Shown: piece by piece, positions 40,728 to 50,437 of the stretch
Numbering within the stretch: the stretch's first letter is position 1
How the letters are laid out: each line of letters begins with the position of its first letter
Source of the DNA: Eubacteriales bacterium
GTDB lineage: Bacteria; Bacillota; Clostridia; Lachnospirales; Lachnospiraceae
Reading direction: 5' to 3'
DNA: 64,000 bases
Assembly (NCBI GenBank): GCA_030539395.1
Contig: JAUNSC010000003.1
Location: 124,001-188,000 of the forward strand
The notes under the pieces: generated by a model
Seen by the model: only the letters and a program-made list of their open reading frames with translations
Databases searched by the model: none
What the model was told of the DNA's origin: nothing
Program-made: the position numbers and the translations under genes

Positions 40728-40799
40728 AGGGCTATCGCCAAACGGTAAGGCAACGGACTCTGACTCCGTCATTTCAAGGTTCGAATCCTTGTAGCCCTG
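40728..40799 (+). tRNA. tRNA-Gln (anticodon CTG)
   Basis: 72 bases. The acceptor arms AGGGCTA and TAGCCCT pair, with discriminator G. The D-arm contains CGCCAAACGGTAAGGC, the anticodon stem ACGGA/TCCGT encloses loop CTCTGAC (anticodon CTG, reads CAG), and the T-arm contains GGTTCGAATCC. No CCA is encoded. Its 3' 48 bases are the left attachment site of the island that follows. Confidence 0.95.
40752..40799 (+). repeat. attL: left copy of the 48-bp direct repeat (3' part of tRNA-Gln)
   Basis: These bases, from the anticodon stem to the discriminator base, recur without mismatch at 50337-50384. The flanking bases differ on both sides, so the repeat is exactly 48 bp. Confidence 0.95.
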
Positions 40800-40802
40800 C
40801 TA

Positions 40803-40829
40803 AGAGGTACTTAGATAAGTACCTCTTTT
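40803..40829 (+). terminator. Terminator after tRNA-Gln (inside the island)
   Basis: A 10-bp stem (AGAGGTACTT with AAGTACCTCT) with a 4-base loop is followed by a T run. Confidence 0.9.
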
Positions 40830-40930
40830 TGTTGTATTTAAAGGCTATGCATGCGTTTTGAAGAACAAAGGAAGCGGGGAAGATTTCCGGATTTTTCCGG
40901 TTGGAGAGGAGATTCTACGAAGCGATAGGT

Positions 40931-40975
40931 CAATCATTTTAAATGATTGCATTTTCCGATAGATGATGCTATTCT
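40931..40975 (+). promoter_or_regulatory. rtcB promoter with overlapping palindromic operator
   Basis: A perfect 19-base palindrome (arms CAATCATTT and AAATGATTG, centre T at 40940) occupies 40931-40949. It overlaps the -35 TTGCAT at 40947-40952, which is 17 bases from the extended -10 TG-C-TATTCT (TATTCT at 40970-40975). The layout suggests control of the rtcB unit by a dimeric DNA-binding protein. Confidence 0.6.
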
Positions 40976-41022
40976 TTCAGAAGAACAATTCAACTTGTAG
41001 TCGAAAGAAAGGAGGATAAGCC

Positions 41023-41103
41023 ATGAGTAATTATAAAAACAATACACATATGAGAACTGAAAACAGAGGGGATCGGGCTGTCCTCAGAGTAGCTTTACGA
41101 TAA
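41023..41103 (+). CDS. Candidate 26-residue leader peptide upstream of rtcB
   Basis: ATG to TAA, 26 codons, with a perfect AAAGGAGG site 7 bases upstream. The peptide is basic: it begins MSNYKNNTHMR and ends RAVLRVALR. The last codons lie in the 5' arm of a predicted hairpin (41078-41133), so translation of the peptide could change folding ahead of rtcB. No homology is recognised; it may be a regulatory leader or a real small protein. Confidence 0.5.
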   Translation: MSNYKNNTHMRTENRGDRAVLRVALR

Positions 41104-41161
41104 CAGGTCTTTATTTATCTGACCGTGGGACAGTCTGGTTTCACCAAATCTTATTTGGAGG
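41078..41161 (+). promoter_or_regulatory. Structured leader of rtcB
   Basis: CTGTCC (41078-41083) pairs with GGACAG (41128-41133) and TCAGA (41084-41088) with TCTGA (41118-41122), leaving a 5-base bulge. A second hairpin, CCAAAT (41144-41149) with ATTTGG (41153-41158), takes in part of the GGAGG ribosome binding site at 41157-41161. The stop codon of the small peptide lies in the first loop. Confidence 0.5.
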
Positions 41162-41165
41162 AATC

Positions 41166-42281
41166 ATGAAAGTTGTAAACGGAATCTATACTTCTGCAAC
41201 AATATTCACAGACAAAGTAGAGGATTATGCGATTGCACAGATTGAATTTCTGTGTAATCAGGAGACATTTAAGGATTGCTGCATCCGCGTGATGCCTGAT
41301 GTGCATCCGGGGAAAGTCGGTACGATCGGATTTACTTCCACAGTAGGTGATAAAATCATGCCTGATGTGGTGGGAATTGACATTGGCTGCGGCATTACAT
41401 TAGCAAAATTGAAACAGAGAAAAGCGGAATATCAGAGACTGGATAAAATTATCCGGGAACAGATACCGTGCGGGAGCCGGAACAGGAAAACCCCACATCA
41501 TAAAGCAGAAGAAATTGATTTCTCCGGCTTACGCTGCAGGAAACATGTGAGCGCAGAGAAAGCCATGTCCGGACTCGGTACGCTTGGAGGCGGTAACCAT
41601 TTCATTGAGCTTAATCAGGATGGAGAAGGCTGTCTGTATGTGGCAATTCACAGTGGGAGCCGGAGTTTTGGAAAAGCAGTAACAGAATATTATCTGGCTG
41701 CAGGGCAGAAAGCACTGAAAGAGAAGGAGATAGATGTTCCATATGAATTGACATATCTGGAGAGCGCTCTTATGGAAGATTATGTCCATGATATCCGGAT
41801 TGTACAGGAATATGCAAGGTTAAACCGTGAAATCATGCTTAATGAACTGGTAAAGGGAATGAAATGGAAGGTGCTGGAATTGACGGATATCCCACATAAT
41901 TATCTGGAAGCATCAGTAGATGGCCTTATGCTGCGAAAAGGGGCGATTTCCGCGAAGAAAGATGAGCCGGTAGTTATCCCCATCAACATGAAGGAAGGAA
42001 TCCTGCTGGGGAAAGGTCTGGGAAACCCGGACTGGAATGTCTCTGCACCGCACGGGGCAGGACGGATCTTAAAACGTGAGGCGGTAAAAGAACAATATAC
42101 GGTTTCGCAGTTTAAGCAGGAGATGAAAGGCATTTATTGTTCCTGTATCAGTAACGATACGCTCGATGAGGCCCCATTCGCATACCGCGGATTGGAGGAC
42201 ATCAGGGAAGCCGTGAAAGAAACCGTCGATATTCAGAAAGTAATCACCCCGGTCTATAATTTTAAAGCCGGGAGCAGATAG
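41166..42281 (+). CDS. rtcB: RtcB-type RNA-splicing ligase
   Basis: 371 residues, the short RtcB form. RtcB joins RNA 2',3'-cyclic phosphate or 3'-phosphate ends to 5'-hydroxyl ends using GTP and Mn2+. Metal and catalytic residues are visible: MPDVHPGKVGTIGFT, VVGIDIGCG (metal Cys), LGGGNHFIEL, IHSGSRSFG and SAPHGAGR with the guanylated His. The long insert of the 480-residue archaeal/E. coli type is shortened. No archease or rtcA/rtcR is adjacent; instead a small Cys-rich protein follows by 11 bases. It lies inside the tRNA-Gln island. Confidence 0.95.
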   Translation: MKVVNGIYTSATIFTDKVEDYAIAQIEFLCNQETFKDCCIRVMPDVHPGKVGTIGFTSTVGDKIMPDVVGIDIGCGITLAKLKQRKAEYQRLDKIIREQIPCGSRNRKTPHHKAEEIDFSGLRCRKHVSAEKAMSGLGTLGGGNHFIELNQDGEGCLYVAIHSGSRSFGKAVTEYYLAAGQKALKEKEIDVPYELTYLESALMEDYVHDIRIVQEYARLNREIMLNELVKGMKWKVLELTDIPHNYLEASVDGLMLRKGAISAKKDEPVVIPINMKEGILLGKGLGNPDWNVSAPHGAGRILKREAVKEQYTVSQFKQEMKGIYCSCISNDTLDEAPFAYRGLEDIREAVKETVDIQKVITPVYNFKAGSR

Positions 42282-42292
42282 GAGGATGTGCC

Positions 42293-42508
42293 ATGGCGAA
42301 GTACAGGGAGGTACCGTGCAAGTATTATATTGCTCTTGGACAGTGTAAAAAAGGCAGGGAAGCGGTCCATAAGAAATACTGCCAGCATTGCGAAAAATAC
42401 TATCCAAGGGCAAAGGTAAGGAACATCAATAAGAAAAGGACATATAATGAAAAAATGAGAGCGTCATCCGGGAAGGATGGCGCTTTTGGTATTTATAAAT
42501 TTAGATAA
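42293..42508 (+). CDS. Small Cys/Lys-rich protein linked to rtcB
   Basis: 71 residues, very basic, with Cys residues at about 9, 18, 30 and 33 (VPCKYY, GQCKKG, YCQHCEKYYPRAK), which could form a zinc-binding knuckle. I believe similar small proteins follow short rtcB genes in other Clostridia, so a functional link with the ligase (RNA binding or accessory) is plausible. AGGAGG precedes the ATG, and the gap to rtcB is 11 bases. The last 16 codons run through an intrinsic terminator, so part of the C-terminus may be a recent extension. Confidence 0.7.
   Translation: MAKYREVPCKYYIALGQCKKGREAVHKKYCQHCEKYYPRAKVRNINKKRTYNEKMRASSGKDGAFGIYKFR
42460..42487 (+). terminator. Terminator of the rtcB unit, inside the 3' end of the small gene
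   Basis: A 10-bp stem (AGCGTCATCC with GGATGGCGCT, one G-U pair) and loop GGGAA are followed by TTTT. It resembles the hairpin at the right attachment site (50385-50418). Confidence 0.75.
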
Positions 42509-42524
42509 AAAATAGTTTTCATTT

Positions 42525-42740
42525 TTAGTCATTCTCTGTATCGTCAGTGATTTCAAATAGCTCACTTATAGAACAATTTAAAAGTCGACTAAGTATTTCT
42601 AAATTTTTAAAATGTATAGAAGATGTTTCATTGTTAAGAAGTTTGGATAAATTTTGGTAACTCATGTCCATTTGCTTATATAACCAATATTTTGTATGAT
42701 TTTGTTCTTTTAGGATTTCTTTAATACGCAAACGAATCAT
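42525..42740 (-). CDS. XRE-family DNA-binding protein
   Basis: 71 residues with one Cro/C1-type helix-turn-helix (about residues 15-60: KYWLYKQMDMSYQNLSKLLN, then ILSRLLNCSISELFEI). It has no further domain. GGAGGTGA precedes the ATG. It is transcribed away from the surface-protein genes on the right, with a 15-base palindrome in between, so it probably represses its own promoter and perhaps the divergent one. Confidence 0.88.
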   Translation of the reverse strand: MIRLRIKEILKEQNHTKYWLYKQMDMSYQNLSKLLNNETSSIHFKNLEILSRLLNCSISELFEITDDTEND

Positions 42741-42766
42741 TAAATTGAATCACCTCCAATATTTCT

Positions 42767-42816
42767 ATTATAGATTAAATCTATTTCTTGCATAACTCAT
42801 TTATACGTTATATAAT
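42767..42816. promoter_or_regulatory. Divergent promoters with palindromic operator beside the XRE gene
   Basis: A perfect palindrome ATAGATTAAATCTAT occupies 42770-42784. On the minus strand it overlaps a TATAAT (42772-42767) for the XRE gene. On the plus strand TTGCAT (42788-42793) and TATAAT (42811-42816) have 17-base spacing and face the genes at 42894 and 43160. Confidence 0.6.
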
Positions 42817-42893
42817 GTAGACATTAGATAATTTGAAAATAACTAATAAAGAAAAAAAGGAGGATGTGGGAATAGGGTCTCATAAAGAGAAAA

Positions 42894-43067
42894 ATGTTTG
42901 CAATTTATATTATTTTAGGATATTGGGCAACTGGAAGAACGATTTATAGAAACAAGATATTATTTGGAACAGCAGAAGGTATTTTTATACAGCGGTTAAT
43001 GCTGGGATTCATATTGGGCTGGGCGTTAATTCCGATTGCAATAATTGGGATGCTATTTGGAAAATAA
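42894..43067 (+). CDS. Candidate small membrane protein
   Basis: 57 residues with two hydrophobic stretches (residues 2-12 and 36-55) around a short basic segment. No good ribosome binding site lies directly upstream; an AAGGAGG is about 30 bases away and serves only a three-codon frame (ATG at 42864). It follows the promoter at 42788-42816. It could be real or chance; family unknown. Confidence 0.4.
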   Translation: MFAIYIILGYWATGRTIYRNKILFGTAEGIFIQRLMLGFILGWALIPIAIIGMLFGK

Positions 43068-43159
43068 GTACTGGATAAATTGAAAATCAGTATTTGTTGT
43101 ATAAAAGGACTGCTGCTTTAAATAAAAGTGGTAGACCAGGGAGTAACAAGGAGGAAAGA

Positions 43160-44499
43160 ATGGAAGAGAAGAGAGTAGTAAAAAGTACATGGATTAAGGT
43201 TATTTGGATAACGCTGATATTAACACTGATGTTTTCGTGCAATGTGTTTGCGGCGCAGCATGTGAAGTTGACAAAGATCGGAAGCCCGGCGGATGTGGAG
43301 CGTATGGCAGAAAATGGTAATGGATTGCTTTTCCGACTGGATCCGTGGGAGGATATACATACATACCTATCATTTACCATTAAAGAACGAAGTTGGGTAT
43401 ATTTTAAAGCAGATGACCTACAGGGAAGTATAATGGTATATGAAGATGCAGAACTGAAGATTCAGGCTAACGGCAGGCTGCATAATCGTTATTATTTAGA
43501 TGCAGGAACATATTATGCAGAAATAAAATATTCAGCAGGACATTGTGATGGAGAATATGTAGAAGGTTATGGCTATTTCATGCCTGCATCGGCGGTATTA
43601 GATGCTGAAGTGGTTCTAGATTCCACAAAAACATATGCAACAATAGACTGCATTACAGCAATGTCGGAACCGGGAATAACATATAGAGTTGTAAAGGGAC
43701 AAGTGTCCGTGCGTGATACAGATAGGTTTTATTCTGATGGGAAAAAGAATGTATCTGGCAGCATAAAAGTTACTGAAAATGGGATTTATTCAATACAAGT
43801 GTCAACAGGTGCAGCGGATTGGACGCAGTGTTCTGTTCATGTTCAGGTTAAAGTAAACGGGATCGGAAAACCAAAGTCTATTTCCAAAATGAAAGCCAAG
43901 TTAAACAAAACTACTTACTATTATGATGGAAAATATAAAAAACCGACTGTTACGATAAGCGGGCTAAAACAGGGAAAAGATTATACAGTCAGCTATAAAA
44001 ATAATAAAAATATTGGGACAGCAACTGTAACAATTAAAGGAAAAGGGAATTATACCGGCACGCTGACCAAAAAGTTTAAAATTACAATAAAAAAAGGTGC
44101 AGTCTATAAAATTGGGAATTTGAAATATAGGATAAAGAAGGCGTCGATAACAGGACTGGAACAGTTGCGGTAATAGGATTAGTAAATAAGAAAAAAACAA
44201 GTGTTACTATTCCGGCAATAATTAAAATTAGTGGAAAAAAATTTACAGTAACAGATATTGCGCCAAAAGCGTTTAAAAATTGTGCTAAATTGACTACAGT
44301 TACAATAGGAACACAAATCAGAACGATTGAAAGTTATGCATTTTATAACTGTCGGAAGTTGAAAAAAGTAAATATTAAATCATTAAAGCTTAGTAAGATT
44401 GGGAAATCCGCTTTTAAAAACAATCACCCAAAATTGAAGTTATACGTACCGAATTCTAAAAAGAAAAAATATAACAGTCTTTTTAACAATGCACGCTAA
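43160..44499 (+). pseudogene. BspA-like surface protein interrupted by a frameshift
   Basis: A signal peptide (about residues 1-32), a unique N-terminal domain, a repeat with YDGKYKKPTVTISGL and GKDYTVSYKNNKN (common in Lachnospiraceae surface proteins), then a stop at 44171-44173. Shifting frame at about 44154 continues the expected text (TGTVAVIGLVNKKK, then VTIPA, DIAPKAFKNCAKL and ESYAFYNCRKL leucine-rich BspA repeats) to 44499. One missing base after GG at 44153-44154 explains it. The first 337 residues could still be made as a truncated product. AAGGAGG precedes the ATG at 43160. The protein would bind host or bacterial surfaces; sequencing error is the alternative to a real mutation. 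Confidence 0.8.
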
Positions 44500-44523
44500 G
44501 AAACAAAAATGAGGAGGAGCCGA

Positions 44524-45735
44524 ATGTGCTGCCCAAATTGTAATCGAAAAATTGAGACTACATGGGTGCGCTGTCCGTATTGCGGCAGCGCACTCAAAAG
44601 AACTGTATATAACAACTGTTCGGATAGGAGGAACGGCAGCAGAAAAGCACGCGAAAGGCGTAATGCAATAATCGCGCTTATCATAGGTGTGATCCTTGCA
44701 CTGCTACTTCTTTTTGGGATATGGCTTGTATTTGGAATGGTTACTTCAAAGGAGAATGATACAGAAAGCCATTCAAAAGTGGTTCAGACAGAAACGACCA
44801 CGGAGAAGGTAACTGAAAAAATTGAAGAAAAGTCGACCGAAAAAGAGACGCAGCCAGCATCGAAGAAGCAGACGGAGAAAACAACAGAGAGCACAAAAGA
44901 CGGATTATATATCCTAAACGGAAGTGATACCAGAGCTTTAACCAGCCAGGAAGTGGCAGCGCTTTCTTCGGAAGAAAGGCAGATGGCGATCAATGAAATC
45001 TATGCGCGGCATGGAAGAAGATTTAATGACAGTTCCATACAGGCATACTTTGATTCCAGGAGCTGGTATAAGGGAACCGTTGCACCGGAAAACTTCAGTG
45101 ATAGTGTATTCAGCCAGACTGAATTAGATAATATCAATCTTCTTGCGTCAGATACATCATCCGCTTCGGACTCGTCGGGGATTAGCTTTATCGGACTGGA
45201 TGTTTCCCCATATTATGGTACATACACAAATGGTTCCGGGGCAATATTGGAAATCGGATATGCAACAGGTCCGGGAAAAGATTATATCAGATTGTCCGGT
45301 TATGGAGATTTTACAGATACGGCGGAAACGGTACAGTCGGGTTATTTTGTGACAAGCGGATCTGAAATATGGATTTGTGTAAATAGTGACGGTTCCATAA
45401 ATGTGGACGATCGGGAAAGCGGAACTTATACGGGAAATTATTATGCAGGCGGATATACTGCAGAAAATACATATACTAATACCGAAAGCGAATATGTTGG
45501 TTATTACGTGGACTATGAAAGCGGTATGACATTGTCCGTTTCCAGCAATGGTGATGGGACATATACAGTATTATGCTATTATGAAGACGGCAGACCGTAT
45601 GGGGAGCACTATGACTGCACTGACAAGGGAGGCTACATAGCAAATCCCTATATTAACGTTTGTCGTAATGATGTGGGAAATGTTGGCGTGACATCCGGTA
45701 TAGGTGGCGTCTGGGGAAACTTTATCAAACAGTAG
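44524..45735 (+). CDS. Zinc-ribbon, membrane-anchored YARHG-domain protein
   Basis: 403 residues. An N-terminal zinc ribbon (CCPNC, then CPYCG) is followed by one membrane segment (about residues 46-70), a Thr/Glu/Lys/Ser linker, a YARHG domain (about 140-205, NEIYARHGRRFND) and a C-terminal beta-rich tail of about 190 residues with repeated G-Y-Y strands. Start at 44524 because GAGGAGG (44511-44517) lies just upstream; the ATG at 44509 precedes that site. It shares its domain with the gene at the left edge of the window. The topology suggests a cytoplasmic ribbon and an external sensor or binding domain; function unknown. Confidence 0.8.
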   Translation: MCCPNCNRKIETTWVRCPYCGSALKRTVYNNCSDRRNGSRKARERRNAIIALIIGVILALLLLFGIWLVFGMVTSKENDTESHSKVVQTETTTEKVTEKIEEKSTEKETQPASKKQTEKTTESTKDGLYILNGSDTRALTSQEVAALSSEERQMAINEIYARHGRRFNDSSIQAYFDSRSWYKGTVAPENFSDSVFSQTELDNINLLASDTSSASDSSGISFIGLDVSPYYGTYTNGSGAILEIGYATGPGKDYIRLSGYGDFTDTAETVQSGYFVTSGSEIWICVNSDGSINVDDRESGTYTGNYYAGGYTAENTYTNTESEYVGYYVDYESGMTLSVSSNGDGTYTVLCYYEDGRPYGEHYDCTDKGGYIANPYINVCRNDVGNVGVTSGIGGVWGNFIKQ

Positions 45736-45874
45736 CAGTGCATGGATATTCTTGTGCGGAAGAACCCCGACTCTCGGATTTGCGGTGTAAAATCGTCTGG
45801 AATACTCAAGAAGACGAAAAATGTAAATTTTATGGTTGCATATTATTATAACGAAATAAGATATATCACACACG

Positions 45875-45900
45875 GCAGAGCTGCTTGCGGCTCTGCTTTT
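45875..45900 (+). terminator. Intrinsic terminator after the YARHG gene
   Basis: A 7-bp stem (GCAGAGC with GCTCTGC) is followed by four T. The stretch 45736-45874 shows no gene. Confidence 0.75.
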
Positions 45901-45930
45901 CCTATGCCCCAATGAAGGGAGGCGGGTACA

Positions 45931-46041
45931 ATGCGGGGCAGAGGCAGGAAAAAGTTTTTATTGCACCGTGCCGGTACAGGAGCTTACCGGCAGATGGACG
46001 ATCAGCGGGACGCAGACAGCGTCCCATATTTCATGCAGTGA
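45931..46041 (+). CDS. Small basic protein upstream of the DUF932 gene
   Basis: 36 residues starting MRGRGRKKFLLHRAG, with GAAGGGAGG upstream at suitable spacing. It lies between a terminator and the DUF932 gene, typical of tightly packed phage or plasmid genes. No family recognised. Confidence 0.45.
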   Translation: MRGRGRKKFLLHRAGTGAYRQMDDQRDADSVPYFMQ

Positions 46042-46054
46042 AAGGCAGGTTGGG

Positions 46055-46129
46055 ATGAAGAAGATTATACTGGCAATACTGGATGTTTTAAGCCTGATAG
46101 CAGACAGGATTTTTGACGAGAATGATTAA
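46055..46129 (+). CDS. Very small protein upstream of the DUF932 gene
   Basis: 24 residues: MKKIILAILDVLSLIADRIF and four more. Hydrophobic with a basic start; preceded by a weak GGTTGGG site. It is 20 bases before the DUF932 gene. It may be a small membrane peptide or chance. Confidence 0.35.
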   Translation: MKKIILAILDVLSLIADRIFDEND

Positions 46130-46149
46130 AAATAAAGGAGGAAACGATT

Positions 46150-47082
46150 ATGGCAGCAAATGTAGAAACAATGTTTTCCGTAAGGGAAAAACCGTGGCAC
46201 GGATTAGGGACAATTGTAGCGCAGGCAGTATCATCGAAGGAAGCACTGCAGCTTGCAGGGCTTGACTGGAAGGTGGAACAGACGGAAGTCTACACTGCGG
46301 GCGGGACAAGGGCAGAGGGATATAAGGCGAACGTACGCAGTTCGGATGGGGCAGTTCTGGGCATTGTATCGGACCGTTACCGCATTGTACAGAACGAAGA
46401 GGCGTTCGCTTTTACAGACGCGCTTCTGGGCGAAGGGGTGCGCTATGAGACAGCCGGTGCCCTGCAGGGCGGGAAAAAAACATGGATACTCGCCCATCTG
46501 CCGCACGAATATATTATTACCGGGGAGCGCATCAGCCCGTACCTTGTGTTTGCAAATTCCCACGACGGTTCGGCAGCGATGAAAGTAGCGGTTACGCCTG
46601 TCCGTGTGGTGTGCCAGAATACACTGAACCTTGCGCTGCAGAAAGCAAAACGTTCATGGTCAGCGGTACATTCGGGCAGCATCACTGCAAAGCTGGACGA
46701 GGCGCACAAAACGCTTTTCATGGCGGAAAAATACATGGATGCTCTGGGAAAAGAGATTGAGGAACTGCAGCGGGTGAAAATGACGGATGCCAGAGTACTG
46801 GATTTTATAGAAGAATTACTCCCCTGTGGTTTGGAGGTTTCAACGGTCCAGAAAAGGAATGTTGAAAAACTGCGTGAGGATATGAAAGCACGGTATTTTG
46901 ACGCGCCGGACCTGCAGGAAGTGGAAAGGAACGCTTACCGCTTCATTAATGCAGTATCAGACTTTGCGACCCACGCAAAGCCGCTGCGCCAGACGGACCG
47001 CTATAAGGAAAATCTGTTCCTGCGCACACTGGACGGCAATCCGATGATAGATAAAGCGTACCAGATGATATGCGCCGCATAA
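46150..47082 (+). CDS. DUF932 (phage/plasmid-like) protein
   Basis: 310 residues. It matches the DUF932/TIGR03299 family by its start (VETMFSVREKPWHGLGT), the middle block (SPYLVFANSHDGSAAMKVAVTPVRVVCQNTLNLAL) and general length. These proteins occur on plasmids, phages and integrative elements; their function is not settled, though a role in DNA maintenance or replication is often assumed. A perfect AAAGGAGG precedes the ATG. The gene is GC-richer than the surface genes to the left. Confidence 0.88.
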   Translation: MAANVETMFSVREKPWHGLGTIVAQAVSSKEALQLAGLDWKVEQTEVYTAGGTRAEGYKANVRSSDGAVLGIVSDRYRIVQNEEAFAFTDALLGEGVRYETAGALQGGKKTWILAHLPHEYIITGERISPYLVFANSHDGSAAMKVAVTPVRVVCQNTLNLALQKAKRSWSAVHSGSITAKLDEAHKTLFMAEKYMDALGKEIEELQRVKMTDARVLDFIEELLPCGLEVSTVQKRNVEKLREDMKARYFDAPDLQEVERNAYRFINAVSDFATHAKPLRQTDRYKENLFLRTLDGNPMIDKAYQMICAA

Positions 47083-47163
47083 GGGAAGAAATACGGATGG
47101 ACAGGGAATTCATGAAAATGAAGGGGCATTCAGAAGATAAACCACAGGAGAGGAGAAAAAGAG

Positions 47164-47424
47164 ATGAGGAAACTGGCAATCACAACCGGGCTGCCGCATG
47201 AAGAGTGGCTGCGGCTGCGCAGGCAGGGGATCGGTGGTTCAGATGCTGCCGCGATCTGTGACCTGCACCCGTACCGCAGCGCCTTTCAGGTATACATGGA
47301 CAAGACCACGGAAGTGGCTGAGAGTCTTGATAGCGAATCTATGCGGCACATCTCCTTGGGGAATACGCCCACTGTAGGGGATTCTGGAACAATCAAGATC
47401 TTCAGACATTCTGCGAGAACGTAG
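47164..47424 (+). pseudogene. Truncated YqaJ-type exonuclease (N-terminal part only)
   Basis: 86 residues. The first about 55 match the start of YqaJ viral recombinase nucleases (EEWLRLRRQGIGGSDAAAICDLHPYRSAFQVYMDK). After ESLDSE the sequence no longer fits the family, and the frame stops soon after. Full-length members have 200-330 residues with the active site further on, so nuclease activity is lost. A deletion has joined the 5' end of this gene to unrelated sequence. AGGAGAGG lies upstream. Confidence 0.8.
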
Positions 47425-47453
47425 CAACGATAATCTGTGTAGAACTGAAAAAC

Positions 47454-47876
47454 ATGAGCGAGCGCTTCCAAGAAAGAGACAAGGCAACTGTTGCGTTGGC
47501 AGCATTTGCGGATGCCATGGGAACAGGAAAGCTGGAACCAATACCGCTAACAATAGAAAATGCCGCCTGCCAGTTTGACTGCTACAGCGACGAAAGCTTT
47601 ATATACATACGAACAGAGATTATTAAAAAGATCGTTGCGGATTATTGCAAGGAGATGTTGGAGAACTGCTATATTTTGAATACCGATGAGCTTTTGGGGC
47701 TGTTGGAAAGAAAAAACGCGATTCATGTGATACGAAAAAATGATGACGATCAAACGCAGATTCCTGGAAAGAAAGATATGAGACGGACACAGCGTTCTAT
47801 GAAGCTTCCTGTGGGTGCAAGCAAAAATCCGAAACGGTATGTAAGAGTGTATAAAACAGCGTTGATAGAGCCGTAA
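47454..47876 (+). CDS. Unrecognised remnant protein downstream of the truncated YqaJ gene
   Basis: 140 residues from the ATG, but the frame is open leftwards to about 47334 without a start or ribosome binding site. It is likely the 3' part of a longer gene joined to the YqaJ fragment by a deletion. It looks like a soluble, charged protein with a basic C-terminus (MRRTQRSMKLPVGASKNPKR). No family recognised. Confidence 0.45.
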   Translation: MSERFQERDKATVALAAFADAMGTGKLEPIPLTIENAACQFDCYSDESFIYIRTEIIKKIVADYCKEMLENCYILNTDELLGLLERKNAIHVIRKNDDDQTQIPGKKDMRRTQRSMKLPVGASKNPKRYVRVYKTALIEP

Positions 47877-48043
47877 TGTACCACTATGACGCGTATACCG
47901 CAGTATTCAACAGCGCAAATAGTATGATTCTGCCACAATCGGATATGGCGGTATGCGCGGCATTGGTGGGAGGTTGAAAGGGCTTGGATGGTTTTTGATT
48001 ATCTTGGAAAATATTTTGGTATATGGATTGAGGAGGTGCATAT

Positions 48044-48238
48044 ATGGAGGATACCACACTCGTTTTGGATGTAAAAGGTCTGCAGTCGGCATTGGGGATA
48101 GGGCGGGACCTTGCTTACGGCTTGATGCATAGCCGATCGTTCCCATCCATACGTATCGGCAATCGTTACGTTGTAGAGAAAGAAGCACTCAGAAACTGGC
48201 TCAAGCGCAATGAAGGAAGAGAAATTTCTCTGTCGTAA
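48044..48238 (+). CDS. xis: Excisionase-like helix-turn-helix protein
   Basis: 64 residues of the MerR-like/HTH_17 type used by integrative elements (LDVKGLQSALGIGRDLAYGLMHSRSFPSIRIGNRYVVEKEAL). It probably directs the integrase toward excision. GAGGAGG precedes the ATG; the integrase follows by 60 bases. Confidence 0.85.
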   Translation: MEDTTLVLDVKGLQSALGIGRDLAYGLMHSRSFPSIRIGNRYVVEKEALRNWLKRNEGREISLS

Positions 48239-48297
48239 GACCAGGAGAAAGGGAAGGCTGTGAGGCTTTCCCTTTCAAAAAAACTTTGGAGGGCTAT

Positions 48298-49521
48298 ATG
48301 GAAGTAAAAAAACGTAATGCCAGAGGAGAGGGCAGTTTTAAGAAAAATCCAGATGGAACAATTACGCATAGAAAAGGAGTAGGATATAAGCCTAACGGAA
48401 AGAGAAAAACGCTTACAGTAACGGCAGCTACGAAAACGGCATGTATCAAGGCTATGAAGAAACTTGAAGCTGAATGGAATGCTAAGAAATCCGAAACGAT
48501 GATAGATGGGAAGGATACAGTGTATGATTTGTGTTATCGTCATCTCAAATACCAGATTTCTAATGGAGATTTGAAACATAAGTCTATTGATCGCAGAGAA
48601 TGTACTATTGAGAACCAGATAAAGGGATATGACGTGGGGTATTTTCAGTGCAGGTCAGTTACATCTGTTGATATAGAGCAGCATGTAAAGCATTTGATTG
48701 CAGAAGGAAAAGTTGGAGCATCTTCTATTATAAAAACAGTGGATGTTCTAAATGCGGCTTATGCCTGGGCAGTGCGTTGCGGTGATTTGACGAACAACCC
48801 AGTTGTACCAGTAAAAGCAGAACTGGTAAAAAAGATAAGTAAAATATCTGGCAAGGGTGCAAATGATGCAGATGTATCGGTTTTATCGGAAGAAGAACTG
48901 AGACGGTTTAAAATGGAGGCATTATCTTTTGCAGAGAATGGTAAAAGAAAATATAGTGCAGGGTTGTATTGCTTACTGTTGGTTAATACAGGAATGCGTG
49001 TGGGAGAAATGATTGCGCTCAGATGGAGTGACTGGAAAGGCGATGTACTGGTAATTGATAAAAGTATTTCTGTGGCTAAGAACAGGGATAAGGTGCGGGA
49101 AGAGGACAACCATTATGTTTCGATTGAAGGCACCACCAAAAACCAGAAAGCGCGAATAATTCAGCTTACCGTGGAAGCAAAAAGCATTCTGGAACAAATT
49201 AAATCAGAAGCCGTACATTATGCCCCGGATAATTTTATCACTCCGACCAAAACAGGGAGAGTGAATACTGCCTCAAATCTGGAACACAGGTTAAAAACGA
49301 TTTTGAAAAATACCGGAATCGAGGATGTAGAGGGCGGATTACATATTTTGCGAAAAACTTTTGCGACTCAGATGTATGAGAATGGAGCGAGAGTAGAAGA
49401 AATTGCGGCATATATTGGTGATCTGGAATCAACGACGAGGAAGTATTATATTGCAATACGAAGGAAAATGCTTGCTGATGGTGAATTCCGGCAGGTAGTA
49501 AAGTTACCGGTCAAGCCGTAA
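48298..49521 (+). CDS. int: Tyrosine integrase of the tRNA-Gln island
   Basis: 407 residues. An N-terminal AP2-like arm-binding part (RNARGEGSFKKNPDG) is followed by a SAM-like core-binding domain (about 65-165) and the catalytic domain with Arg in TGMRVGEMIALRW (about 237), HILRKTFATQ (His and Arg, about 354) and the nucleophile Tyr in TRKYYIAI (about 386). It appears complete. The ATG at 48298 has GGAGG 5 bases upstream; a TTG at 48286 is unlikely. It should recombine the 48-bp tRNA-derived sites. Confidence 0.95.
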   Translation: MEVKKRNARGEGSFKKNPDGTITHRKGVGYKPNGKRKTLTVTAATKTACIKAMKKLEAEWNAKKSETMIDGKDTVYDLCYRHLKYQISNGDLKHKSIDRRECTIENQIKGYDVGYFQCRSVTSVDIEQHVKHLIAEGKVGASSIIKTVDVLNAAYAWAVRCGDLTNNPVVPVKAELVKKISKISGKGANDADVSVLSEEELRRFKMEALSFAENGKRKYSAGLYCLLLVNTGMRVGEMIALRWSDWKGDVLVIDKSISVAKNRDKVREEDNHYVSIEGTTKNQKARIIQLTVEAKSILEQIKSEAVHYAPDNFITPTKTGRVNTASNLEHRLKTILKNTGIEDVEGGLHILRKTFATQMYENGARVEEIAAYIGDLESTTRKYYIAIRRKMLADGEFRQVVKLPVKP

Positions 49522-49566
49522 ACTTAATTTTTGAAAAAATTCATAGAATGTAGCAGAAAAAAGTGT

Positions 49567-49584
49567 TATACTATTACGTAATAG
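49567..49584 (+). promoter_or_regulatory. Promoter and palindromic operator of the mntA-hepT pair
   Basis: An extended -10, TG-T-TATACT (TATACT at 49567-49572), overlaps a perfect 14-base palindrome CTATTACGTAATAG (49571-49584). The -35 is poor. The ATG of mntA follows at 49600. Confidence 0.6.
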
Positions 49585-49599
49585 AAGGAAGGTGCTATT

Positions 49600-49905
49600 A
49601 TGGGAAATCTGTTGAAAGTGAGTGACATACGGAAAAAGGTTGCCGTTCTTGGTCAGCAGTATGGTGCTGAGCGTATTTTCCTGTTTGGTTCCTATGCCAA
49701 AGGCGAAGCAGATGAAGATAGCGATATTGATTTAAGAATTGACAGAGGAGATGTTCGTGGGCTTATGATGGGAGGCCTGCAGGTCGATTTGGAAGATGCG
49801 CTTGGAAAGAAGGTTGACCTGATCTCAACAAAGGCATTACGGAAAGACTTTTTAGAAAATATAAGAGAAGAAGAGGTATTGTTATATGACCGAACGAGAT
49901 CATAA
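49600..49905 (+). CDS. mntA: MntA-type minimal nucleotidyltransferase antitoxin
   Basis: 101 residues. The GSYAKGEADEDSDIDL motif (about residues 29-44) is the polymerase-beta-type nucleotidyltransferase site with its Asp pair; a third Asp lies in LQVDLEDALG. MntA antitoxins inactivate HepT toxins by adding AMP to a Tyr near the HEPN active site. It overlaps the HEPN gene by 20 bases, so the two are coupled. AGGAAGGTG precedes the ATG. Confidence 0.9.
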   Translation: MGNLLKVSDIRKKVAVLGQQYGAERIFLFGSYAKGEADEDSDIDLRIDRGDVRGLMMGGLQVDLEDALGKKVDLISTKALRKDFLENIREEEVLLYDRTRS

Positions 49906-50227
49906 CATTCTCTTGCACATTGTTGAATACTGTGATAGGCTGAATGCATTTACAGCCAATATGGAGTATGAGCAGTTTGAAAATAGTGAGCTGCATAAAG
50001 ATGCATGTTCGATGTGCATACTTCAGATAGGCGAATTAGTAAGGAATCTTACGGACGAATTTAAGGAGAAGCATTCCAATATCCCGTGGCGCCAGATCCG
50101 CTCTATGAGAAATATCGTGGCACATCATTATGGTGTGGTAGATGCGGAAACATTATGGGATACGGTCGTTTCGGATATCCCCTCTCTGAAAGTTTATTGT
50201 TTGGATATCATACATTCTATAGGATGA
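49886..50227 (+). CDS. hepT: HepT-like HEPN ribonuclease toxin
   Basis: 113 residues, all-helical HEPN protein. The motif RNIVAHHY (about residues 73-80) is the R-x4-H-x-Y site needed for RNase activity and for modification by MntA at the Tyr. It forms a type VII toxin-antitoxin pair with the upstream gene. It sits between the integrase and the right attachment site, a place that could favour retention of the island. The RNA target is unknown. Confidence 0.9.
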   Translation: MTERDHNILLHIVEYCDRLNAFTANMEYEQFENSELHKDACSMCILQIGELVRNLTDEFKEKHSNIPWRQIRSMRNIVAHHYGVVDAETLWDTVVSDIPSLKVYCLDIIHSIG

Positions 50228-50336
50228 TTGAGAGCAGAATAACGAGGATTTTAACCGTTTAGGTCAATATGTAGGTCATTTTACAAATGCAATGCTTAGA
50301 AACTCGCGGTTTTACAAGAAAAAATGCCTTTGAAAT

Positions 50337-50384
50337 AACGGACTCTGACTCCGTCATTTCAAGGTTCGAATCCTTGTAGCCCTG
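50337..50384 (+). repeat. attR: right copy of the 48-bp tRNA-Gln repeat
   Basis: Exact copy of 40752-40799. It lacks the 5' part of the tRNA, so it cannot be a functional tRNA. It marks the right end of the island. Confidence 0.95.
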
Positions 50385-50437
50385 TTGAGAGCATCATCCG
50401 GGAGGATGATGCTCTCAACAGGGCTACAAGGATTCGA
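50366..50437. repeat. Perfect 34-bp inverted repeat on attR
   Basis: Arms 50366-50399 and 50404-50437 are exact reverse complements around the loop GGGA. The inner 15 bp look like the former tRNA terminator stem; the outer 19 bp are the 3' end of the tRNA fragment and an inverted copy of it. No T run follows the right arm. Confidence 0.95.

Follow-up and report, generated by a model that had tools for sequence, protein, structure and literature searches.

Upstream of the RNA ligase gene rtcB in a 64,000-nt stretch of a Lachnospiraceae genome (Eubacteriales bacterium, GCA_030539395.1, contig JAUNSC010000003.1, positions 124,001 to 188,000; the whole stretch is referred to as the window) lies a leader that is probably a ribosome-mediated attenuator with trp-like logic, placed ahead of RNA-repair genes. 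The architecture common to the rtcB relatives of the family is a short open reading frame (ORF) with a strong Shine-Dalgarno sequence (SD) and a set of alternative helices: segment 1 (the leader SD) can pair with segment 2 (codons ~16-22 of the ORF), segment 2 can pair with segment 3, and segment 3 can pair with segment 4 in a hairpin ahead of the gene. The case for attenuation by alternative structures is good for the leader family and fair for the window.

In the proposed mechanism, helix 1:2 would form when no ribosome is on the leader, and hairpin 3:4 would hold expression low, as a terminator in most relatives and, in the window, as a hairpin that masks the rtcB SD. A ribosome translating the leader ORF to its end would cover segment 2 and likewise allow 3:4 to form. 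A ribosome slowed on early Asn codons would occupy segment 1 and free segment 2, so that 2:3 would form, 3:4 would be broken, and rtcB would be made, together with prfH and/or an AAA-VWA gene pair in relatives. The stall would be caused by tRNA-Asn that is broken or uncharged, or by ribosomes with a damaged decoding centre; RtcB-type enzymes repair both.

Searching 397 genomes of the window's family at the protein level gave an RtcB match at E<=1e-60 in 47, with the window's own among them. The 31 closest other rtcB loci (L012-L040, 29 loci from this search, plus L004 and L005) were screened for leaders within 700 nt upstream of rtcB, using SD plus ATG as the only criterion. A short ORF with a strong SD was present 139-272 nt upstream of rtcB in 21 of the 31; 20 of these leaders came from the screen (ORFs of 24-42 codons) and L034 was added by eye, while the match at L033 is the gene of a Cys/Lys-rich miniprotein and was excluded from the count. 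With further loci the leaders numbered 36, counting that of the window. L036, a near copy of L035, was excluded from leader statistics, and L116, in which no clear pairing was seen, was not counted. L079, whose gene start was not placed, was left out when folding and terminators were tested, L023 was excluded from the alignment because MAFFT misplaced its start codon, and in L030 segment 2 was assigned manually.

The leader peptides diverge, and tblastn found no conserved leader peptide. Many have an Asn-rich start and a (R/K)G..(V/I)L end, the codons of which form segment 2. The first-pass annotation of this DNA had named a conserved peptide with synonymous-only changes as a sign to look for, and this sign is absent; the close pair L017/L121 has two replacements and one silent change, and the peptide is identical in the near-copies L035/L036. 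What is conserved across leaders is the Asn codons and the base pairing, not the peptide sequence. Neither in the window nor in 17 fetched loci does an Rfam family match the leader; weak matches in the window fall far below the gathering score and were judged to be due to chance.

Of 24 leaders, 20 had 1:2 pairing at p<=0.05 (500 dinucleotide shuffles) and 17 had significant 2:3 pairing (400 shuffles; mean z -2.6). When partners were swapped in from other loci, the own-locus partner had a mean rank of 5.8 (1:2) and 3.9 (2:3) of 24, ranks that are not fully independent; because swapped partners fit worse, the two strands of each helix are taken to have changed together. In 19 aligned leaders, helix 1:2, the consensus structure of which was drawn from the same 19 sequences, showed two-sided changes in 4 of 9 pairs, a count reached in 0 of 500 shuffles, and 85.7% of its cells were paired vs 29-48% when slid. 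In most relatives, segment 3 was seen by eye to overlap with the terminator's 5' arm. Of 32 leaders, 25 are separated from the gene by a terminator-like hairpin that no more than 5% of shuffles match; L017, L030 and L054 are among the few leaders whose best hairpin differs from 3:4. The leader family has the competing helices of a ribosome-mediated attenuator.

Asn accounts for 84 of the 420 codons at positions 2-16 of 28 leaders (20.0%), compared with 4.5% at the same positions of 122 longer SD-bearing ORFs from the same loci. Shuffles gave a mean of 37.9 (sd 5.8) and a maximum, out of 2000, of 56. At codons 17-26 of the 28 leaders the proportion is 6/260 (2.3%); seven later-found leaders have 20 Asn in 105 codons at positions 2-16. 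AAY occurs at 10/392 (2.6%) and 45/392 (11.5%) in the other two frames of the leaders, and Lys is below expectation (35 vs 56.5) despite the A-rich stretch. Together with the strong SD and ORF in the window and in 21 of the 31 closest loci, the frame-specific Asn codons suggest that the leader ORF is translated. Most of the 28 leaders were picked by SD and ORF alone; those picked partly by sequence are L079, L083, L089 and L094 (covariance model) and L065 (DNA pattern). Over the 28 leaders, control codons precede the antagonist segment, a hallmark of amino-acid attenuators, and Asn decoding is the likely trigger.

The same position of the Asn codons upstream of segment 2 would be seen in an attenuator of asparagine supply that happened to control these genes by the same logic with another trigger. 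This is improbable, since the genes behind the leader are rtcB, prfH, the miniprotein gene, AAA and VWA, and none serves asparagine metabolism; it is these genes that point to tRNA or ribosome damage as the natural signal. Conserved paired helices would also be found in a structured or protein-binding leader, autoregulated by RtcB or the miniprotein, in which the ORF is incidental. Such a leader is very unlikely, given that AAY is enriched chiefly in the coding frame and not beyond codon 16 and that the leaders have a strong SD, though the SD was itself a search criterion. Thr codons are also enriched (58 vs 30.8 expected), so Asn may not be the sole signal. This excess would suit a general sensor of translation stress or antibiotics, in which a drug or the nascent peptide, not Asn decoding, causes the stall. 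The same 1:2/2:3 logic would serve there, as in erm or toiL-type leaders, and toiL of Escherichia coli senses several ribosome drugs (PMC12121999). Nascent-chain stalling should, however, fix the position of residues, whereas the leader peptides diverge and keep the Asn codons and the pairing, and we consider this explanation unlikely.

An exact DNA pattern of the leader, which the window's own leader does not match, occurred at 8 places in the 397 genomes; 7 of these precede rtcB and the eighth precedes an AAA ATPase gene (reversed control, 0). A covariance model gave 28 places at E<=1e-3, with 21 before rtcB, truncated at two of the places (G336, G326), and 4 before an AAA gene; 6 of these 25 true places are absent from the training set of the model. 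The window leader ORF matched at E 9.4e-7, its sequence being part of the model. The AAA protein behind the leader is AAA_5/MoxR-like, and it is followed by a DUF2201 metallopeptidase-VWA protein where the DNA sufficed (L103, L104, L105, L107, L108). The operons include leader-rtcB-prfH, leader-rtcB-miniprotein, leader-AAA-VWA, leader-rtcB-miniprotein-AAA/VWA remnant-prfH (L102), leader-AAA-VWA-rtcB (L112/L123), leader-AAA-VWA-rtcB-prfH (L029/L124), leader-rtcB remnant-miniprotein-AAA-VWA (L108) and, with no leader, rtcB-AAA-VWA (L040/L107). The rtcB unit had been called self-contained, which holds only in the window; many relatives carry prfH or AAA-VWA in the same operon.

Some of these loci have further peculiarities. 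In L108 / L083 (G336) rtcB is without its middle (residues ~79-320), and the leader, miniprotein, AAA and VWA genes are kept. L032 / L126 (G016) has two different rtcB genes in tandem, with prfH after one. At L097 (G349), a 32-aa leader-like ORF with SD and a T-rich hairpin (E 0.0015) precedes a gene which, from its sequence, we take to encode a metallo-hydrolase-like protein.

In 15 leader loci, a tblastn search with PrfH from L102 placed the ribosome-rescue gene prfH behind rtcB; PrfH of L102 is a TIGR03072 equivalog (193.2 bits, cut-off 166.65). These loci resemble the RtcB2-PrfH module in having an RtcB-family ligase gene and then prfH (PMC9223846, PMC1586002). RtcB2-PrfH protects E. coli from colicin E3 (PMC9223846), and the first prfH paper noted translational coupling with the upstream gene (PMC1586002). 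The window differs in that its rtcB has no prfH neighbour. Its genome has no PrfH above the cut-off, the two weaker matches, in frames of 353 and 370 codons, being probably RF2 and RF1, and the window RtcB scores 111.9 bits against the release_rtcB profile (TIGR03073), below the cut-off of 271.8; the window is not an RtcB2-PrfH module on either count. A close AAA homologue is also absent from the window genome (best 26% identity).

On an RtcB tree of 65 rows, all leaders fall within a single 41-row clade (support 100/99), and none of the 24 rows outside it has one. In this clade 27 rows are marked, L036 is a further, unmarked leader, and L112 and L029 have the leader at the operon head. L004, labelled Lachnospiraceae, falls among window-family genomes. 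Searching 341 genomes of the class with the covariance model and strict filters returned only the window and one marginal place (L122, E 0.0019), which suggests that, as far as this search can detect, the leader is restricted to the family. Among 8 genomes of the genus, the window's included, the window-type rtcB is present only in the window's genome, where a whole-genome search found it in single copy; one other genus genome has a longer-type rtcB relative, 43-44% identical in two pieces. Phage and plasmid relatives (649 and 151 records) are all below 60% identity, and a viral scan gave 2 distant loci.

The switch was modelled in 32 leaders as equilibrium folding with the ribosome as a mask. 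Mean P(2:3)/P(3:4) was 0.32/0.43 in free RNA, 0.62/0.21 with the region from SD to codon 9 covered, and 0.11/0.47 with the ribosome at the stop codon, and 3:4 exceeded 2:3 in 17, 7 and 26 of the 32 leaders, respectively. The predicted mean probabilities shift as an attenuator model asks.

Several observations, besides the Thr excess, weigh against attenuation. Pairing was not significant in 4 of 24 (1:2) and 7 of 24 (2:3) leaders, and further pair types in helix 1:2 were not above shuffles (314/500). No leader was found near L021, L024, L028, L032, L033, L037, L039, L040 or L044, nor further upstream in L021, L028 and L032; the leader is patchy even within its RtcB clade, with 12 changes on the tree (shuffled mean 21); and of the 28 covariance-model matches at E<=1e-3, 3 fall at ordinary gene starts. 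When folding was modelled, the ribosome-free state would be OFF in only about half of the leaders (17/32), 3:4 still wins over 2:3 under a stalled ribosome in 7 of 32, and no 3:4 pairs could be defined in L117. The window itself has no terminator above chance between leader and rtcB (40% of shuffles were as good) and thus lacks the intrinsic terminator of a transcription attenuator. A ribosome at the last codon (26) of its leader gives a P unpaired of 0.44 for the rtcB SD, which is not OFF; 2:3 frees this SD only in part (0.20 to about 0.5); with one ribosome at codons 3-5 the value is 0.40-0.44, and the minimum free energy structure still contains 3:4; and one ribosome at codons 7-13 leaves 1:2 intact in this model without sterics.

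As a whole, the window leader is not unusually stable (z -0.70; 49/200 shuffles fold equally well); what counts is the alternative pairings common to relatives. In the window, 1:2 has a p of 0.008 vs shuffles and an own-partner rank of 6/24; 2:3, at -29.2 kcal/mol, is the third strongest of 24, with z -4.2 and own-partner rank 1/24. Four of the codons at positions 2-16 of its ORF are Asn. The sequence GGTTTC is common to segment 3 and the hairpin over the rtcB SD, and by eye L004 and L054 resemble the window. Modelled P(2:3)/P(3:4) was 0.02/0.91 in free RNA, 0.75/0.17 when stalled and 0.65/0.06 at stop. The GGAGG of rtcB had a P unpaired of 0.20 in free RNA, 0.47 with an initiating ribosome and 0.51 with SD to codon 9 covered, and of 0.20-0.21, as expected, with the ribosome at codons 17-23. 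By this model the window fits the free, early-stall and mid-ORF states and not the last-codon state.

A different explanation for the window strain is a repressor acting at the 19-base palindrome, the leader being a decayed relic of the attenuator of its relatives. The palindrome is perfect and lies on the -35, a gene for an HTH_26 regulator adjoins the unit (42525-42740, convergent to it), no terminator remains and the modelled switch is partial. A mere decay would, however, be unlikely to build both the strong 2:3, with its top-ranking own partner, and a 3:4 hairpin overlapping the rtcB SD, and we give this explanation little weight. The palindrome had been put forward as a second layer of control, which the relatives do not bear out: among 33 leader regions examined, none of the others has it, and it was rejected as a conserved operator. 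Other inverted repeats occur in a few leader regions (e.g. L117, L013, L017, L121). With arms >=9 and spacer <=4, the window has 8 distinct perfect palindromes in 12 rows, compared with 0-3 rows in shuffled windows (n=5), so that the one at 40931-40949 is unusual and not unique. A second palindrome of 15 bases, ATAGATTAAATCTAT, was seen by eye at 42770-42784, before the HTH_26 start.

The attenuator proposed here resembles those of the trp/his type in its leader ORF with control codons, its alternative helices and, in relatives, its terminator. It differs in that segment 1 is the leader SD, repair genes are controlled, and the window form would act on translation. Among the upstream ORFs compared, the nearest in mechanism appears to be toiL of topAI-yjhQ in E. 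coli, which, as proposed, detects translation stress through stalling and opens the next ribosome binding site; the genes under its control are a toxin-antitoxin pair, and Rho-dependent termination is involved (PMC12121999). In enterobacteria, the rtcBA operon is induced through RtcR and sigma-54 by damage to the translation machinery, RtcR being a protein sensor with a CARF domain that responds to tRNA fragments (PMC7790460). For the window rtcB this control was rejected: the genome has no RtcR match and there is no -24/-12 site (<=2 mismatches) in 4.1 kb around the gene. This agrees with the earlier proposal of RNA-level control by a leader ORF and folded leader instead of RtcR/sigma-54. Text queries gave no match for 'leader' in the main text of PMC9223846 and PMC1586002 or for 'attenuat' in PMC1586002; they also found no rtcB in PMC8632094 and PMC2965389 and neither 'leader' nor 'attenuat' in PMC12606134. 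The open-licence literature matches listed include no description of this leader, which does not prove its absence in print.

We know of no settled account of how bacteria without RtcR sense cut tRNA or rRNA. The leader may, more tentatively, be a self-reporting switch, in which a cut ribosome or cut tRNA-Asn stalls on the leader and thereby turns on the ligase, the release factor and the AAA-VWA machine, as a portable module common to several repair operons and carried in the window on a mobile element. It would then serve as a sensor that needs no protein and responds directly to failing translation, would place RtcB, PrfH and the MoxR-AAA/VWA pair in one regulon, and would have loss of tRNA-Asn or damaged ribosomes as inducer. 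The leader would also offer a handle on the roles of the AAA-VWA genes and of the Cys-rich miniprotein.

Table 1. Positions in the window of the rtcB unit and of the integrated element that carries it
Feature	Position	Strand	Remarks
tRNA-Gln (CTG), target of integrated element	40728-40800	+	ARAGORN, Rfam
attL-like copy of 48-nt direct repeat (3' part of tRNA-Gln)	40752-40799	+	exact repeat
19-base palindrome CAATCATTTTAAATGATTG	40931-40949		covers first three bases of -35-like TTGCAT
Candidate promoter TTGCAT-17-TATTCT	40947-40975	+	read from sequence
Leader SD AAAGGAGG and spacer, core of segment 1	41008-41022	+	
Segment 1	41011-41026	+	pairs with 41072-41086 of segment 2, -16.8 kcal/mol
Leader ORF MSNYKNNTHMRTENRGDRAVLRVALR, 26 aa	41023-41103	+	
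Segment 2, 3' part of leader ORF	41065-41089	+	partner is segment 1 or 3
Segment 3	41117-41146	+	pairs with segment 2 (-29.2 kcal/mol) or is 5' arm of 3:4
Hairpin 3:4 over rtcB SD	41136-41166	+	-10.5 kcal/mol
rtcB, short RtcB-family RNA ligase, 371 aa	41166-42281	+	Pfam RtcB E 2.2e-57
Cys/Lys-rich miniprotein ORF, 71 aa	42293-42508	+	adjoins rtcB in some relatives too
Intrinsic terminator, overlaps miniprotein ORF 3' end	42456-42488	+	
Tyrosine recombinase (integrase)	48286-49521	+	Pfam Phage_integrase E 1.7e-18; PHROGs integrase
attR-like copy of 48-nt tRNA-Gln repeat	50337-50384	+	

The palindrome, leader ORF, hairpins, rtcB, miniprotein gene and terminator all lie where the first-pass annotation had placed them (Table 1). 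The second hairpin, described there as touching the rtcB ribosome binding site, does lie at the SD; it covers it, and it shares its 5' arm with a longer helix, previously unseen, to the end of the leader ORF. The TTGCAT/TATTCT pair was not among the matches of a promoter scan (cut-off 9-of-12). The window RtcB aligns to RtcB of P. horikoshii (1uc2) across the catalytic Cys/His motifs.

The 71-residue miniprotein exists as an ORF, but its last ~17 codons lie in or behind the terminator and have no match in five aligned relatives (61-63 aa). It belongs to no Pfam, NCBIfam or PHROGs family (one weak NCBIfam match, E 0.029, far below cut-off), and a comparison with solved structures gave no convincing match (best E 0.19). 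From its Cys pattern and basic charge, we guess that this small protein probably binds metal, associates with RNA and acts as a partner of RtcB. In L033, L051 and L057 a miniprotein homologue lies upstream of rtcB, not downstream; in L051 and L057 it precedes a less similar rtcB outside the leader clade.

The rtcB unit is the first cargo of a 9.6-kb integrated element (40752-50384), recognised by the 48-nt direct repeat of the tRNA-Gln 3' end and by the integrase. The element also encodes DUF932 and YARHG proteins. ARAGORN found no tRNA gene in 28 other leader/operon loci, most with about 1.5 kb of flank, so the window is the only case in which carriage at a tRNA gene is shown. At attR and just beyond it lies a perfect inverted repeat (50366-50437; arms 34, spacer 4), in which the tRNA-Gln 3' end flanks a terminator-like hairpin, and which is perhaps the relic of an older insertion.

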